In this document: piece by piece, positions 1 to 5,503 of the stretch
How the letters are laid out: each line of letters starts with the position of its first letter
Position numbering within the stretch: position 1 is the stretch's first letter
Position numbers and translations under genes: made by a program
The notes under the pieces: model-generated
What the model saw: only the letters and a program-made list of their open reading frames with translations
Databases searched by the model: none
Told to the model about the DNA's origin: nothing
Assembly: GCA_023665245.1 (NCBI GenBank)
Contig: JAMPEH010000173.1
Coordinates: 1 to 5,503 of the forward strand
Length of the DNA stretch: 5,503 bases
From: Muribaculaceae bacterium
GTDB taxonomy: Bacteria > Pseudomonadota > Alphaproteobacteria > Rs-D84
Direction of reading: 5' to 3'

Positions 1-3000
1 TGGAGGGCGCAAGCGCCAGCCGGGGCTATTATCTGAGCAATATCCTGTCCATTTCCGCCGGCGCGGGCCACGTGCTGGCCATCCGCAGCGACGGCGCGGT
101 GTACGGCTGGGGCGACAACCGCTACGGCCAGCTGGGCGTGGGCAAAAACCTGAATAACGCGCTGGACGACGTGCTGGAGCTGACCTGGAACGAGGCTGCG
201 GCACTGGGCGCGACCTTTACCTACCGCGTGCCTGTCCAGGTGCTGGCCGGAAACGACCTGCACCACGAGGACGTGCCCACCGAGATGGAGGGCTTGATGG
301 GCAACGCTATGGTGGTGGCCGCCGGCGGCGATCACTCCCTGGTCCTGATGTCGGACGGGACGGTTCTGGCCTTCGGCAAGGACGATTACGGCCAGCTGGG
401 CACCTACGACGGCGGCGCGAGCGGTCTGGGCAGCGACGTGGGCTGGGTCAGCTACGACACGTCTAAAAACCACGCCGCCACCAGCAATTCCGACGAGGTG
501 ACCGCCTGGACGCAGGTGGAAAAGTACCTGAAGGAGAGCCGGACGGCGAAGCCGACGCTGGTTCAGGTGTCCCAGGGCCGCACGGAGACCACCACCGCGG
601 ACACCGGGGTCGTCTACATGGCTCCCAACCACTATGACGACATCAACGCCGAGGGCCAGGTGGCGGGTACCGTCTACGTGGTGACCCCGCTGAACAACGT
701 GCGGGCCATCGCGGCGGGCGGCAACTCCAGCTCGGCCATCGTGAAGGACGGAGACGGCGCCACCGGCGGCACGGTTTACGCCTGGGGCGACAATATGTAT
801 GGACAATTGGGCTACAACGAGATCGACGAGGAGGCCATTTTTGGCGTGCGCACCGGTTTCGTTGGCTTTGCCATGCCTGTGCACAAGGGCGAAAGCAACG
901 TGCAGGGGTCGGATAACTTCGCCACCGCGATGGTGATCTCGGTGGGCCTGCGGCATATGGGCGCGGTGCGCACGGACGGCTATGTCTGGGACTGGGGCAA
1001 GAACGACAAGGGCCAGCTGGGCAACGGCACCACCACCGACAGCTTCTGGGCGGTGCAGGCCGGCGACGGCGAGAGCAAGACCCTGCTGCTCCAGAAGTAT
1101 TGGAAGTACGACAAGAACGACACGCTGCTCCATGAGTACAGCCAGCTCAAGCCCATGGGCCTGGACAACCCCAACAGCGTCACCCTGGCGGACGGGGAAT
1201 ACCTGATGATCGACCTGAAGGAGATCCTCTACAGCCGCAAGATGGGCTTCAACCTGATCACCGACGGCGAGAGCAAGTCCATCGCCGACGAGCTGCACCT
1301 GGTGGTGGCGGACGTGGCCGATCCCTCGGTGCTCACCGCCACCCGCGGCGTGGGCGGCGACACCACGCTGGTCAAGCTGGGCGCCACCAGCGACAAGCTG
1401 GGGCTGACCAGCCTCTATCTGGACTACGAAAACAAGGCGGAGAACACCAGCAATATGCTGAATTTGCCTGTCTGGGTGCGCCATCGCCAGATGGACTCCG
1501 CCGAGGGCGGGGATGACGACGACGCGCACGTCCTCTCCCTGGCGGCGCCTATGGTGGCCGCCGGGGCGCACCACACCGTTGCGCTGGACTCTCTGGGCCG
1601 CGTTTGGGTGTGGGGCGACAACACTTACGGCCAGCTGGCCCGCGATCCCAGCAACACCGGCACGCGGCGGCTGGACTCGCCCACCCGCGTGACCAACTTC
1701 TTCACTTACAGTGCCAGCGGCGTGACCAACACGCCGTATCAGACGGCGGACGGCAACCCGCTGACCTTCGTGGCGGTGGCGGCAGGGGATAACTTCTCCA
1801 TGGCGCTGGACATCGAGGGCCATGTGTGGGCCTGGGGCCAGAACGCCGGCGGCCAGCTGGGCCGCGGGAACATCAACGCCGCCGCCAATCCCAACTACGT
1901 GCCCATGCAGGTGCGCGCCCGCGTGGAGCGCAGAAGCCCGGTCATCCTGCTGGGCGACTACATGGTGGACAAGGAATACATCCACAAAGAGGGCGACATC
2001 GAATATTACGATCCCTACACGGAGCAGGACCGCATCGTGGCCATCGCGGCGGGCTCCAACCACGCGCTTGCCCTCGCTGAAAGCGGGCAGGTGTACGCCT
2101 GGGGCAGCAATACCTTCACCCAGGGCAATACCATCACCACCACGCTGTGCGGTCAGCTGGGTCAGGGCCCCCTGGGCGAGACGCAGCTCACCACGGCCAA
2201 GCTGGTGCTGAAGGGCAAGACCAGCAGCACCACCACCAACCTGCAAGGGGCGGTGGGCATTGCCGCGGGCGGCGACACCAGCGCGGTGCTGTTCCCCAAC
2301 GGCACGGTGTTCACCTTCGGCTCCAACGCCTATGGACAGCTGGGCGACGGCAGCAGCCGCAGCAACCGCAACAGCGCCATCCGGGTCAGCCTGGGCGAGG
2401 GCGACGGACTCATCAACGTGAACGACCAGGCCAACAAGAGCTTTATGGATAAGGCCATCGCCCTGGAAATGGGCAGCCGCCACGGCGCGGTCATGGCTCT
2501 GAATATCACCAACATCGAAGCGGAGGAGGGCGCCACGCCCTTCACCGTCTCCCCCGGCGTGTACGGCTGGGGCGACAACAGCAACAACCAGCTGGGTGAG
2601 CCCGCCAGCTCTGAGGCGGGCAAAAAGACCACCTTCAACTACCCGGTGCTCATGGAGCCCGCCGGCGCGCAGGCGCTGGCCGCAGGCTTTAACGGCACTA
2701 TGGCGAAGGTGGAGAACCAGGCGCTGAAGCTGGACACCAAGAAGGACGCGGTGCAGCTGAAGGCCTGGGGCGACAACCGCAGCGGCCAGCTGGGCAACAA
2801 GGGCGCCGCCAGCGGCGAGCCCGTTAACTACGACAACACCGTCGCCCGCGACCTGGATGGTCTGCAGGTGGACGACGTGGACTATATGCAGAGAATTTCC
2901 ACCTTTGCCATGGGCGAGGACTTCATGGTCATGTCCCGTGACACAGGTACGGTGTTCGCGGCGGGCGCCAACGGCAGGAGCCAGCTGGGCGACTACGGCA

Positions 3001-5503
3001 ACACCGCTTCCAACTACCCCGTGGTGGTGGGTGAGCTGAGCTACGCCTCCCTCCTGGCCTGGGGCACCGATCACAACACCACCCCCCACGACCTCTCGCC
3101 GCAGATCACCCTGCAGGGCGGGGAGCAGGTCACCTTTATCCTGGACCGCATGGGCTACGTGGAGGAGAAGGGCTATAACCTCCTGGCCCACAAGCCCGCG
3201 CCGGTCATTAACGTGAACGACCTGGAGTTCACCTCCCTGGACGAGAGCATTATTTCCTTCCAGGGCAAGAATACCGCCAACAACACGGTGATGTTCGGTT
3301 CGCCGGACGCACTGAACCCCAAGATGGGCAACACGTTCATCCAGATCTACGAGCGCGCCACCGGCCGCAGCCTCCTGCTGCGGGTGCAGGTGCTGCCTAC
3401 CGCCGCCAGCGGCCGCTTCACCACGCCGAAGCTCGCCGCGGGCAAGGAGCACACCGTGGCGGTGAAGGCGGACGGCACAGCCTGGGCCTGGGGCAGCAAC
3501 CAGAAGGGCCAGCTGGGCGACGGAACCTTCACCAACCGCGCTTACCCCGTCCAGATGCGGGATATGAACGGCAAAATGTTTACCAACGTCATCAGCGCTG
3601 CTGCCGGTGACGGCTTTAGCGCGCTTTTGGTGGACACCGACGGCAATATGCTCACCACCAACGACCGCCAGGTCTATGTGGTGGGTACACTGACCAACGT
3701 GACCACCAATTTGGGCGAGAAAACCAGCTACGAGGAGCAGATGCAGGCCTGGCTGCGCACGCAGCCCCTGGTTCGCTTCCTCTACCGCCGGGGCGGCGAG
3801 TACGCGGAGTTCTCCCAGGAGCAGATCGACGCGGGCATGACCAGCGGCTGGACCTATTCCGGCATTTTGACCCGCGTGACCGAGCAGCGGACGGACGAGG
3901 ACGGCAACACGTACACCTATTACTTCTCCTATTCCAAGTATAGGGACGAGTATGACCGCGACTGCGGCAAGTGGAGCGACATTCCCGAGGTCTGTCCCAA
4001 CCCCAAGCACACCCACAGCGGCGAATATATGGTTCGGGACGGTCAGGTGAACAGCGACAACCGGCTGGTGGTGATCTCCGCCACGGTGGACGTTGACCGC
4101 ATCCACTATGACGCGGCGGCTAACGTGTACCTCTACACCTACTGGGACGACGCGGCGGGCAAATACCAGATGATCTTCTACACGGAGACCTATAAGGATC
4201 CCACCACCAACATGACCTACTTCGTCAGCGACACCTTCCAGAGCCACTATAACCACCTGGGCACCATCAAGAACACGGCGGGCGCGGTGGATAAGTATGT
4301 GAAGGCCCATCTGCCCGAGATGCTGATGCTGCCCGTGGGCAGTCTGACGGCGGACTTCTACACCATCAGCTATATGCCGGTGACCTACACCTACTACACC
4401 GGCACGCTGAGCTGTAAATACAGCTGGGTGGAGGACGACGGCACCGCCGCGGGCAAGGCCAAGACGTGCGGACTGAAGAATTATGACCCCTCCGCGTCCA
4501 AGGACATCCCGCTGGTGTGCGACGATCCCACCTGCGAGCTGCTGGGCCAGCAGTACTTTACCAAGATCTACGACGACAAGACCAACGTTTGGGCCGGCAG
4601 AAGCTCCATCGAGTTTGTGAACCTGCCCGCAAGCGAGCAGCGCTACCGCGTGTGGCAGTGCGCCAACGACCACGTGTGGATCGACTACTATTCCGACGTG
4701 GAGCGGGAAATGGCCGTTTCCCCCGTGGTCCAGCTGGTCACCGGCGCGGGCACGGCGGAGCGCGTGGGCGTCACCAACGTGGTGGAGATCACCGCGGGGG
4801 CGGATCACCTGCTGGCGCTGACTAAGGACGGCAAGGTCTACGCCGCCGGCAACAACGCCCACGGCGAGCTGGGCCAGGGCAACACCGAGCCCACCGAGGT
4901 GGCGGTGGAGGTCAAGGGCTTCAAGGGCCGCAGCCTCCTGAACCACGTGGTGGAGCTGGCCGCGGGCGACGGGTTCACCGTGGCCCTGCGGGCCAACGGC
5001 GAGATGTACGCCTGGGGCCGCAACGACAAGGGCCAGCTGGGCAACGAGCTGACCGCTCTGGTGAGCGCGGGCAGCGCGGTGAACTACGCGACCACCCCCG
5101 TTCAGATCAACTCCGGCGAGTACCGCGTGGACGAGAAGCCGGAATTCCGCAATATTACGGGAGTTTACGGCGTCACCGCAGGCCGCGACCACGTGATGGT
5201 GGTGGCGCGGGACAACCTGTGGGTGCCCGACGTGAGCACGGACGAGGAGCAGGTGACCAAGGCCACCTCCGGCGGCCACTATGACCGGCTGACCACCCTC
5301 TTTGGGTGGGGCTCTAACGCCAAGGGCCAGCTGGGGCTGGCGGATACGAGCAAGATCTACGCCCTGCCTGCCAATGTGGGCCGGGTCAACGGCATTACCA
5401 CCCTCTCGGGCGGCGGGGATCACACCCTGCTCCGGGTGATGCGGACGGTGGACGGCGTCACCCAGACCCGGGTGATGGGCTTCGGCGACAGCGCGCTGGG
5501 CCA
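1..5503 (+). CDS. Giant RCC1-repeat (beta-propeller) protein, partial at both ends
   Basis: Translating from position 3 gives 1833 codons with no stop up to position 5501, so both the start and the stop lie outside the window. About 17 units carry the RCC1 signature: an 'AAGxxH' strand, a 'DGxVYxWGxN' strand, then 'xxGQLG'. This matches the RCC1 / ATS1-like propeller family. In bacteria these are mostly large, probably exported proteins of unknown ligand; the Ran exchange activity of eukaryotic RCC1 should not be transferred. Visible order: repeats 1–4, domain A, repeats 5–11, half-repeat, domain B, repeats 12–13, Cys/Tyr-rich island, repeats 14–17. Only eight cysteines occur in 1833 residues; seven are in the island and one (C716) is in repeat 7. 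No signal peptide, membrane segment or anchor is visible, so a surface location is inference. Codon use is uniformly GC-rich, with no break suggesting a recent fusion. The family call is firm; the molecular function is unknown. Confidence 0.96.
51..1022 (+). repeat. RCC1 repeats 1–4 (first visible propeller block)
   Basis: Four units are visible. Repeat 1 (51–137) reads ISAGAGHVLA… then YGWGDNRYGQLG. Repeat 2 (312–401) has AAGGDHSLVL and AFGKDDYGQLG, with Phe replacing the usual Trp. Repeat 3 (708–812) has IAAGGNSSSAI and YAWGDNMYGQLG, with extra residues (DGATGG) in the hairpin. Repeat 4 (933–1022) has SVGLRHMGAV and WDWGKNDKGQLG. Linkers are uneven: 102 residues separate repeats 2 and 3 (402–707), far more than a normal inter-blade loop, though that stretch still holds a standard 'PTLVQV' strand. 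A seven-bladed RCC1 propeller would need about three more units, presumably to the left of the window. Repeat recognition is secure; assignment to one propeller is inference. Confidence 0.93.
99..119 (+). repeat. 21-bp exact direct repeat, copy 1
   Basis: The bases encoding VYGWGDN in repeat 1 are identical to 2559–2579 in repeat 9. The spacing of 2460 bp is divisible by three. Like the 25-bp pair, this reflects the RCC1 core motif with strongly biased codons. Confidence 0.8.
1002..1026 (+). repeat. 25-bp exact direct repeat, copy 1
   Basis: The bases encoding NDKGQLGN in repeat 4 are identical over 25 positions to 5022–5046 in repeat 15, about 4 kb away. The first and last bases differ from neighbours just outside, so the match is bounded. 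It is probably kept alike by protein constraint and codon bias, but it is long enough to mediate recombination. Confidence 0.85.
1176..1478 (+). other. Domain A: beta-rich, Ig-like-sized domain, first copy
   Basis: Residues 392–492 lack the RCC1 signature but alternate hydrophobic and polar residues as a beta-sandwich would. They begin 'VTLADGE' and end with a strand like 'LPVWV'. The segment aligns without gaps over its first 27 residues with domain B (residues 1034–1060), sharing TL, GE, L, Y, G and NL at the same offsets. After it comes a short acidic linker (EGGDDDD, residues 501–507) leading straight into repeat 5. Ig-like or cadherin-like spacers between propellers are common in large bacterial surface proteins, so a spacer or binding module is a reasonable guess. 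The fold itself is inferred from length and strand pattern only. Confidence 0.6.
1551..2990 (+). repeat. RCC1 repeats 5–11 (seven-unit block)
   Basis: Seven units lie between domains A and B: repeat 5 (1551–1640, ends GQLA, not GQLG), 6 (1770–1862), 7 (2037–2162), 8 (2253–2345), 9 (2454–2597, ends NNQLG), 10 (2673–2795) and 11 (2895–2990, ends RSQLG, with AAGAN replacing WGxN). Seven is the blade number of a closed RCC1 propeller, so this block could be one complete domain. Several units carry insertions. Repeat 7 has about 13 Thr-rich residues, including the lone C716, between WGSN and GQLG. Repeats 9 and 10 have over ten extra residues in the hairpin before the WG strand. Loops of this kind normally sit on a propeller face and would suit ligand contact, which is inference. 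Confidence 0.92.
2559..2579 (+). repeat. 21-bp exact direct repeat, copy 2
   Basis: Partner of 99–119, in the VYGWGDN strand of repeat 9. Just downstream, 2769–2795 in repeat 10 matches 111–137 of repeat 1 at 25 of 27 bases, so repeats 1, 9 and 10 are among the most alike at DNA level. Confidence 0.8.
3051..3077 (+). other. Orphan half-repeat strand (LLAWGTDHN)
   Basis: Residues 1017–1025 look like the 'YAWGxN' strand of an RCC1 unit. The preceding 'AAGxxH' strand and the following 'GQLG' are both missing. It sits just after repeat 11 and just before domain B. It may be the remnant of an eighth unit, or a strand that closes the propeller of repeats 5–11, since RCC1 folds close by sharing strands between first and last blades. 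The match is short, so confidence is modest. Confidence 0.45.
3102..3401 (+). other. Domain B: second copy of the Ig-like-sized domain
   Basis: Residues 1034–1133 begin 'ITLQGGE' and end with the strand 'LLLRVQVLPT'. Against domain A the first 27 residues align without gaps, with nine identities (T, L, G, E, L, Y, G, N, L) and several conservative pairs (V/I, L/V, I/M, F/Y). The later part also matches in pattern: a 'G-x-T-x-[LI]-x-[LI]-x-YE' strand followed by a short turn and a 'V-x-V' strand. As after domain A, an RCC1 unit follows after a short linker. The duplication is seen directly; the Ig-like fold is inferred. Invasin- or BIG-type domains are the likeliest relatives but were not confirmed. 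Confidence 0.62.
3432..3686 (+). repeat. RCC1 repeat 12 and degenerate repeat 13
   Basis: Repeat 12 (3432–3518) is a textbook unit: LAAGKEHTVAV, then AWAWGSNQKGQLGDGT and a 'YPVQM' linker strand. Repeat 13 (3588–3686) starts normally with ISAAAGDGFSALLVDTDGN. It then has an extra LTTNDRQ stretch and ends 'VYVVGTLTN', having lost the Trp and the entire GQLG. The sequence then runs into the Cys/Tyr-rich island. Repeat 13 may be a blade interrupted by the island, or an edge blade that no longer needs the canonical turn. Confidence 0.85.
3963..4016 (+). repeat. Cys motif, copy 1 (CG…DIPxVCxxPxHxH)
   Basis: Residues 1321–1338 read C-G, three residues, D-I-P-E-V-C, two residues, P-K-H-T-H. The candidate ligands are C1321, C1331, H1336 and H1338. 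H1336 occupies the place that C1511 takes in the second copy. A Cys/His exchange at the same position is what a zinc-site ligand would tolerate, but a structural role without metal is equally possible. Confidence 0.5.
4467..4535 (+). repeat. Cys motif, copy 2 (CG…DIPxVCxxPxC)
   Basis: Residues 1489–1511 read C-G, ten residues, D-I-P-L-V-C, two residues, P-T-C. The core D-I-P-x-V-C-x-x-P-x-[C/H] matches copy 1 exactly in spacing. The gap between CG and DIP is seven residues longer here. C1471 upstream and C1553 downstream (WQCANDHVW) could complete a four-ligand site or pair as disulfides. Confidence 0.5.
4779..5503 (+). repeat. RCC1 repeats 14–17 (last one cut by the window edge)
   Basis: Repeat 14 (4779–4874) has EITAGADHLLAL and YAAGNNAHGELG, so GELG replaces GQLG and Ala replaces Trp. 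Repeat 15 (4947–5042) is canonical: ELAAGDGFTVAL and YAWGRNDKGQLG. Repeat 16 (5163–5336) has VTAGRDHVMVV, a long insertion of about 25 residues rich in charged and Thr residues, then FGWGSNAKGQLG. Repeat 17 (5394–5503) has LSGGGDHTLL and MGFGDSALG and runs off the end. More repeats probably follow. Repeats 12–17 may form one propeller into which the island is inserted, which would need confirming with the downstream sequence. Confidence 0.92.
5022..5046 (+). repeat. 25-bp exact direct repeat, copy 2
   Basis: Partner of 1002–1026, in the same reading frame and at the same place in the RCC1 unit. Recombination between the two would remove about 4 kb in frame (4020 bp, divisible by three), deleting domains A and B and the island while leaving the protein readable. 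Confidence 0.85.

Follow-up and report, generated by a model that had tools for sequence, protein, structure and literature searches.

What is a segment of about 360 residues, rich in cysteine and tyrosine and lacking the RCC1 signature, doing within an array of RCC1 repeats? This question is raised by contig JAMPEH010000173.1 (GenBank assembly GCA_023665245.1), whose 5,503 nucleotides were analyzed in full and are referred to here as the window. A forward-strand reading frame crosses the whole window (3..5501) without a stop codon and encodes 1833 amino acids, with both ends open. The reading favored here, with a probability of roughly 0.7, is that a lineage-specific domain has been inserted into one of the seven blades of an RCC1 propeller, that the propeller belongs to a giant, probably secreted protein and that the insert carries two zinc-ribbon-type sites.

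The composition of the frame bears out the initial annotation, which had described a segment of this kind. Seven of the eight cysteines in the window (residues 716, 1321, 1331, 1471, 1489, 1506, 1511 and 1553) fall within residues 1229-1589, and tyrosine accounts for 33 of the 361 residues there (9.1%), compared with 53 of 1472 (3.6%) in the rest of the frame. By the hypergeometric test, the enrichment has a p of 3e-5 for tyrosine and 7e-5 for cysteine. For the concentration of seven of eight cysteines in one segment, a permutation test that allowed every 361-residue window, and so corrected for the post hoc choice of the segment, gave a p of 0.0024. Pfam recognizes 15 PF00415 (RCC1) stretches in the whole window protein and no RCC1 repeat signature inside the insert. 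The 361-residue segment has no Pfam or NCBIfam match at E<=10, the whole protein has no NCBIfam match either, and none of the known enzyme families matched the insert. Neither of the outcomes that would have refuted the initial annotation, a known common domain or diverged RCC1 blades, came out, but the predicted structure was too poor to put them to a proper test.

The insert is located inside blade 2 of the propeller, where it replaces the usual WGxNxxGQLG loop. Blades were counted and placed by eye from their hub and WG motifs, and their boundaries are approximate. The features concerned are as follows.

3..5501, + strand: fragment of a giant RCC1 protein, open at both ends, 1833 amino acids (open reading frame; aligned with residues 3447-5310 of a 39,571-residue frame from a Clostridia metagenome-assembled genome)
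3423..3581, + strand: blade 1 of the insert-bearing propeller (hub AAGKEHT, residue 1145; WGSNQKGQLG, residue 1163; approximate, by eye)
3582..3695, + strand: first half of blade 2, the "broken repeat 13" of the initial annotation (AAGDGF..VYVVGTLT; from the alignment)
3696..4724, + strand: cysteine- and tyrosine-rich insert domain, about residues 1232-1574 (from composition and alignment; boundaries approximate)
4725..5501, + strand: remainder of blade 2, then blades 3-6 (blades counted by eye; the model of L001, a relative described below, matches RCC1 folds)

Blade 1 starts near residue 1141, blade 2 at 1194, being broken after VYVVG, and blade 3 near 1593. Six blades of this propeller lie in the window, while the seventh falls past its end and is visible in L001. 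The earlier placement of the segment between repeats 13 and 14 needs correction, as it sits inside one blade. The supposed broken repeat is the first half of that blade, and it has a similar form in all insert-bearing relatives aligned.

Relatives of the insert are few. A protein search by shared words with the segment returned the window alone, and a similar search with the insert profile returned only two RCC1 proteins, with 17% of the query matched. A scan of genome contigs with the segment found one relative, L001, in an uncultured Clostridia metagenome-assembled genome (G001), with the whole query matched and 72% identity in the best segment. L001 lies inside a stop-free frame of 39,571 residues, and the window aligns in one piece with residues 3447-5310 of that frame (74.9% identity by BLASTP; 80% over 1794 aligned residues in a global alignment). 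The window is very probably a fragment of a secreted Clostridia protein of about 40,000 residues; it aligns end to end with one member of the giant family, but is itself a 5.5-kb fragment open at both ends. The comparison shows the insert to be a conserved domain under the same selection as its host protein: the pairwise ratio of nonsynonymous to synonymous substitution rates (dN/dS) between the window and L001 is 0.31 in the insert and 0.30 over the full alignment. In the full-length search, P0002 and P0023 carry the insert among the 119 other proteins listed. Viral contigs gave no pattern match with the single sequence and no confirmed relative with the profile. Sequence searches of the PDB gave RCC1 hubs, short weak zinc fingers and otherwise nothing useful.

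A four-row profile detected the insert in 8 of 400 genomes of the family to which L001 belongs. In the family-, order- and class-level scans at most four candidates were scored per genome; in the eight insert-bearing genomes and in G798, discussed below, all candidates were scored, and the matches of the eight were listed down to an E of about 0.11. Among these listed matches each of the eight genomes has one insert match, and the others are weak and nearly all at RCC1 edges. In G161, G270, G306 and G117 the insert match covers profile positions ~128-393, and the start was matched separately. A profile of the N-terminal region of the giants found the same 8 genomes of 400, the two genome sets being likely identical judging from their labels, and by coordinate subtraction the distance from the N-terminal match to the start of the insert is 9.3-14.3 kb in each of the eight. 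At the genus level, 3 of 6 genomes have a match to the insert profile. Three of 394 genomes pass the threshold at the order level, two of which (G001 and G078) have the insert; at the class level 5 of 391 pass, and one (G001) has it. The matches in G099, G798, G861, G921 and G981 reach no further than the RCC1 edge of the profile and are excluded from the insert matches. Separately, G078:C3:82851-83282, in the same giant as the G078 insert, weakly matches mid-insert profile positions 166-295 (E 0.039) and is possibly a distant second copy or a chance match.

The genome G798, from the class-level set, contains a 29,380-residue RCC1 frame (contig C4, from 18119; L099-L105) whose six best blocks follow the block order of the G001 giant, with 24-30% identity. 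This frame has 12 cysteines and no CxxC. No insert was found among all 73 candidates scored in G798, and the N-terminal profile of the giants has no match there. At the expected place G798 has seven blades, with an intact blade 2 reading YAWGDNTSGQLG and no extra length. The apparent empty site is best supported by G161. Its 930 residues before the insert have their top match in G798 at 2523-3405, with 368 bits vs 271 for the runner-up, and for the 1800 residues after the insert the top match is at 3445-5220 (534 vs 475). G270 supports the second half only: the part after its insert fits (3445-5150, 448 vs 406), and the part before is best placed elsewhere (6600-7444). G078 supports both, the first narrowly (221 vs 216), with the part after fitting from residue 6004 on. 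The G001 region has its best local match on a neighboring G798 propeller and its second best on the right place. With G798 as the one outgroup, the insert may have been gained in the family or lost in G798.

Because the segment starts and ends inside an RCC1 blade, it might be thought to comprise one or more strongly diverged RCC1 blades. This is very improbable, since the RCC1 matches of insert-bearing pieces are at their ends, in blade halves, seven blades are counted without the segment, and in G798 seven blades fill that place without additional length. Moreover, the cysteine pattern is foreign to RCC1. A distinct accessory domain that is not RCC1, as initially proposed, is supported by its conservation, by the single insert match per genome, by its position in the same blade in relatives and by its absence from a distant relative that is colinear and has the blade unbroken.

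The nature of the insert is best approached through its cysteines, which form four knuckles in an 11-row alignment.

3963..4016, + strand: knuckle A, C1321 and C1331 with H1336/H1338 nearby; CPxC in L025 and L027 (from the alignment)
4413..4469, + strand: knuckle B, C1471 and C1489; a close pair (CxxC to CxxxC/CxxxxC) in most relatives (from the alignment)
4518..4535, + strand: knuckle C, C1506 and C1511, then L-[LV]-G-Q (from the alignment)
4659..4673, + strand: knuckle D, C1553-x3-H1557; second ligand cysteine in L026, L027 and L028 (from the alignment)

With the near relative L021 left out, the conservation of cysteine over the remaining 10 rows is 0.89 and that of the next residue 0.45, which shows the cysteines to be the best-conserved residues of the aligned insert. 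By eye, knuckles B and C are full in 10 of the 11 rows, as is D in 10, and A has at least two cysteines in 9. The canonical CPxCG-type spacing is present in the distant relatives L025 (from G161; CPVCG, CKNIAC, CPDCG) and L027 (from G270; CPRCG, CSNC, CTVCG, CQNSTC) and absent from the window. L025 matches Pfam Zn_ribbon_8 with an E of 4.2e-6 (27.1 bits vs a cut-off of 34.4), and among the 11 alignment members NCBIfam finds the FmdB zinc ribbon (1.4e-5, two members) and desulf_FeS4, a desulfoferrodoxin family (7.3e-5, one member), the cut-offs not being given.

The insert was initially suggested to carry the specific activity of the protein, with the propellers as scaffold; its cysteine pattern, however, is less like that of an active site than like metal sites with a structural function. 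From this pattern we infer two zinc-ribbon-type sites in the insert. The likely ligands are C1321, C1331, C1471, C1489, C1506, C1511, C1553 and H1557. Based on the order and spacing of the knuckles, B and C would form an inner site of the zinc-ribbon type, nested in an outer site formed by A and D. The two putative sites would pin a tyrosine-rich loop domain onto the propeller.

Several observations weigh against these sites. The knuckles of the window are stretched, with 17 residues between the B cysteines and 9 between those of A, and its own segment matches no zinc family in Pfam or NCBIfam. The Pfam zinc matches are all under the curated cut-offs and occur only in distant relatives, and when the B-C part was searched as a profile against the PDB, nothing beyond short and weak zinc-finger matches came up, the best at 0.013. 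Four of the ten other rows lack one ligand: one of B in G015, C1321 in G078, C1331 in P0002 and the second of D in G161. The excess of Cys-Cys column pairs in the alignment (326, vs a permuted mean of 7.6 and maximum of 17 in 2000 permutations), which counts in favor of the sites, overstates independence because the rows are related; since they are also aligned on these cysteines, the conservation values given above are the better control. The AlphaFold model of the insert alone has a mean predicted local distance difference test score (pLDDT) of 41.7, and no metal geometry is seen in the AlphaFold models, where confidence at the knuckles is too low. Given the stretched knuckles and the four rows that lack a ligand, metal binding may have been altered or partly lost in the lineage of the window. 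The stretched knuckles and the missing cut-offs slightly lower confidence in the metal sites. Relative to L001, whose knuckle B reads CTYC, the window has 15 extra residues between the B cysteines (4416-4466), an indel inside a conserved pair.

The conserved cysteines could instead form disulfides that staple an extracellular domain. The giants have N-termini that by eye resemble signal peptides, which would probably place the domain outside the cell, and the knuckles of the window are stretched past the usual zinc spacing. However, the CxxC and CPxCG spacing in distant relatives and the matches of relatives to zinc-ribbon models are contrary to this explanation. The second ligand of knuckle D is histidine in 7 of 11 rows, cysteine in 3 and missing in 1, and this swap favors metal because it is usual among metal ligands and not among disulfides. 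Disulfides are therefore considered unlikely. Even less likely is the binding of iron in the manner of rubredoxin or desulforedoxin, for an extracellular redox chemistry. The best Pfam match of L027 is Desulfoferrod_N (5.8e-4, below cut-off), and the desulf_FeS4 match of one member points in the same direction, but L025 is better matched by plain zinc ribbons and one ligand is a histidine in most rows. Zinc-ribbon-type sites are thus preferred over both.

Structure prediction supports the host fold. The AlphaFold model of the L001 propeller has a mean pLDDT of 55.9; 244 of its 775 residues score between 70 and 90, and one exceeds 90. Two patches of the insert reach block means of ~47-78, while the knuckle blocks are at 23-40, so the model locates the insert on the propeller and leaves its fold undefined. 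Foldseek of this model against the PDB gave 602 matches at E<=10, of which the best 50 are all RCC1-like propellers or BLIP-II. The top values were for UVR8 (4d9s, 6.1e-18) and RCC1 (1a12, 3.5e-16), and RPGR was also matched.

Compared with seven-bladed RCC1-type propellers such as UVR8, RCC1 and RPGR, the host has the same fold in the Foldseek comparison but differs by its blade 2 insert of ~340 residues and by sharing its chain with many other propellers. BLIP-II (3qi0; 1.6e-9 to the L001 model), a secreted beta-lactamase inhibitor, is an RCC1-like propeller from bacteria with a protein as its binding partner, but it is a single small domain, and we know of no insert of this kind in it. The insert resembles zinc ribbons of the Zn_ribbon_8/FmdB type and the double zinc ribbon in its paired cysteine knuckles, in the CPxCG of its distant members and in the ~12-20 residues between B and C. 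In contrast, A and D of the window are more than 200 residues apart with B and C nested between them, its knuckles are stretched, the matches are below the Pfam cut-offs, and the insert sits within a propeller whose protein is probably secreted.

The insert-bearing frames are of 39,571, 40,694, 34,110, 32,936, 32,325, 18,501, 8,036 and 7,968 residues, and five of the eight are thus in the range of 32,325-40,694. Those of 32,325 and 34,110 residues are on contigs measuring 3.67 and 3.23 Mb, from genomes given as 3.7 and 3.2 Mb. Four giants and their neighbors, along with two further domains of the window, are listed below.

G001:C1:92603-211315, - strand: G001 giant, L003-L015, 39,571 residues (stop-free frame)
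G161: giant, L061-L067, 32,325 residues (stop-free frame)
G270: giant, L068-L074, 34,110 residues (stop-free frame)
G078: giant, L075-L083, 40,694 residues (stop-free frame)
G001:C1:61873-92402 (- strand), G078:C3:162452-179190, G161:C1:223131-230000 and G270:C1:2920002-2924003: large frames adjoining the giants on the same strand, mutually related
3078..3440, + strand: inter-propeller domain of the window, immunoglobulin-like by eye only (no Pfam match)
1122..1535, + strand: second inter-propeller domain, immunoglobulin-like by eye (no Pfam match)

The two inter-propeller domains have a weak likeness to each other (E 0.004). Their identification as Big_2, guessed by eye, was rejected for want of a Pfam match.

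Similarity is colinear in all three pairs of giants that were compared (G001-G078, G001-G161 and G161-G270). A scan of the G001 frame in 14 pieces gave RCC1_2 counts of 8, 7, 15, 13, 21, 16, 24, 12, 15 and 7, adding up to 138 stretches that extend to about residue 28,000. Big_2 has a single match above the cut-off, at about residue 22,460, and the C-terminal third is partly filled by cadherin-like domains above the cut-off. By eye, four C-termini are alike; one has a Dockerin_1 match below the cut-off (0.0025). Further large frames with RCC1 matches, of 30,029 residues in G015 and 13,329 in G117, occur on the same contigs as the insert frames. The giants are poor in cysteine, with 30 in 32,325 residues in G161 and 85 in 39,571 in G001. 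The CxxC motifs observed, relative to those expected from random placement, number 6 vs 0.18 in G001, 6 vs 0.08 in G270, 3 vs 0.06 in G078 and 2 vs 0.03 in G161; the insert itself supplies both of those in G161, three in G270, one in G001 and none in G078. Other zinc-ribbon-like cysteine clusters occur at residues 9182-9208 and 22802-22832 of G270, 14383-14407 of G078 and 14054-14076 of G001, with none in G161.

Three of the adjoining frames, some of which are incomplete in the stretches examined, have starts resembling signal peptides, and one of the incomplete frames has a Dockerin_1 match above the cut-off (4e-6). The giant and the adjoining large frames possibly form one operon. The cohesin-like look of a gene downstream of a giant was not confirmed by Pfam.

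A literature search found no earlier report of such a family of giant RCC1 proteins among the entries listed, a preprint mention being possible, and the word RCC1 is absent from the text of PMC11573180. Giant open reading frames are described in Omnitrophota, including one of 39,678 amino acids in V. archaeovorus, and an extracellular coat or adhesion role has been proposed (PMC10066038). They are described there as mostly poorly conserved with few annotated domains, and the word RCC1 does not appear in the main text. The Clostridia giants resemble them in size class and in this proposed role but differ in being colinear among relatives and rich in RCC1.

The likeliest role of the insert, in a speculative reading of its sequence, would be the binding of a partner, surface or substrate. 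Equally speculatively, the giant protein may be an extracellular adhesin, coat or scaffold with the insert as its binding module. More broadly, the window may come from an as yet undescribed family of secreted bacterial proteins that are as large as titin and anciently conserved (~29,000-41,000 residues, with 138 RCC1_2 stretches in the one member scanned). Together with the further large secreted proteins beside them, these would form an extracellular coat, adhesin or dockerin-linked scaffold, whose propeller loops would have gained zinc-ribbon-type modules, the nested double site being the one shared by every insert-family giant found. This proposal is tentative and falls a little short of an even chance.

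The larger result is the giant-gene family. If the proposal is true, single genes of 97-122 kb are conserved lengthwise across Clostridia species, two of these genes lying on contigs of nearly genome length, and the limits of bacterial protein size and secretion would become directly testable. A metal-pinned domain grafted in one blade that is intact in a distant relative would then be a clear case of repeat proteins gaining (or losing) parts.

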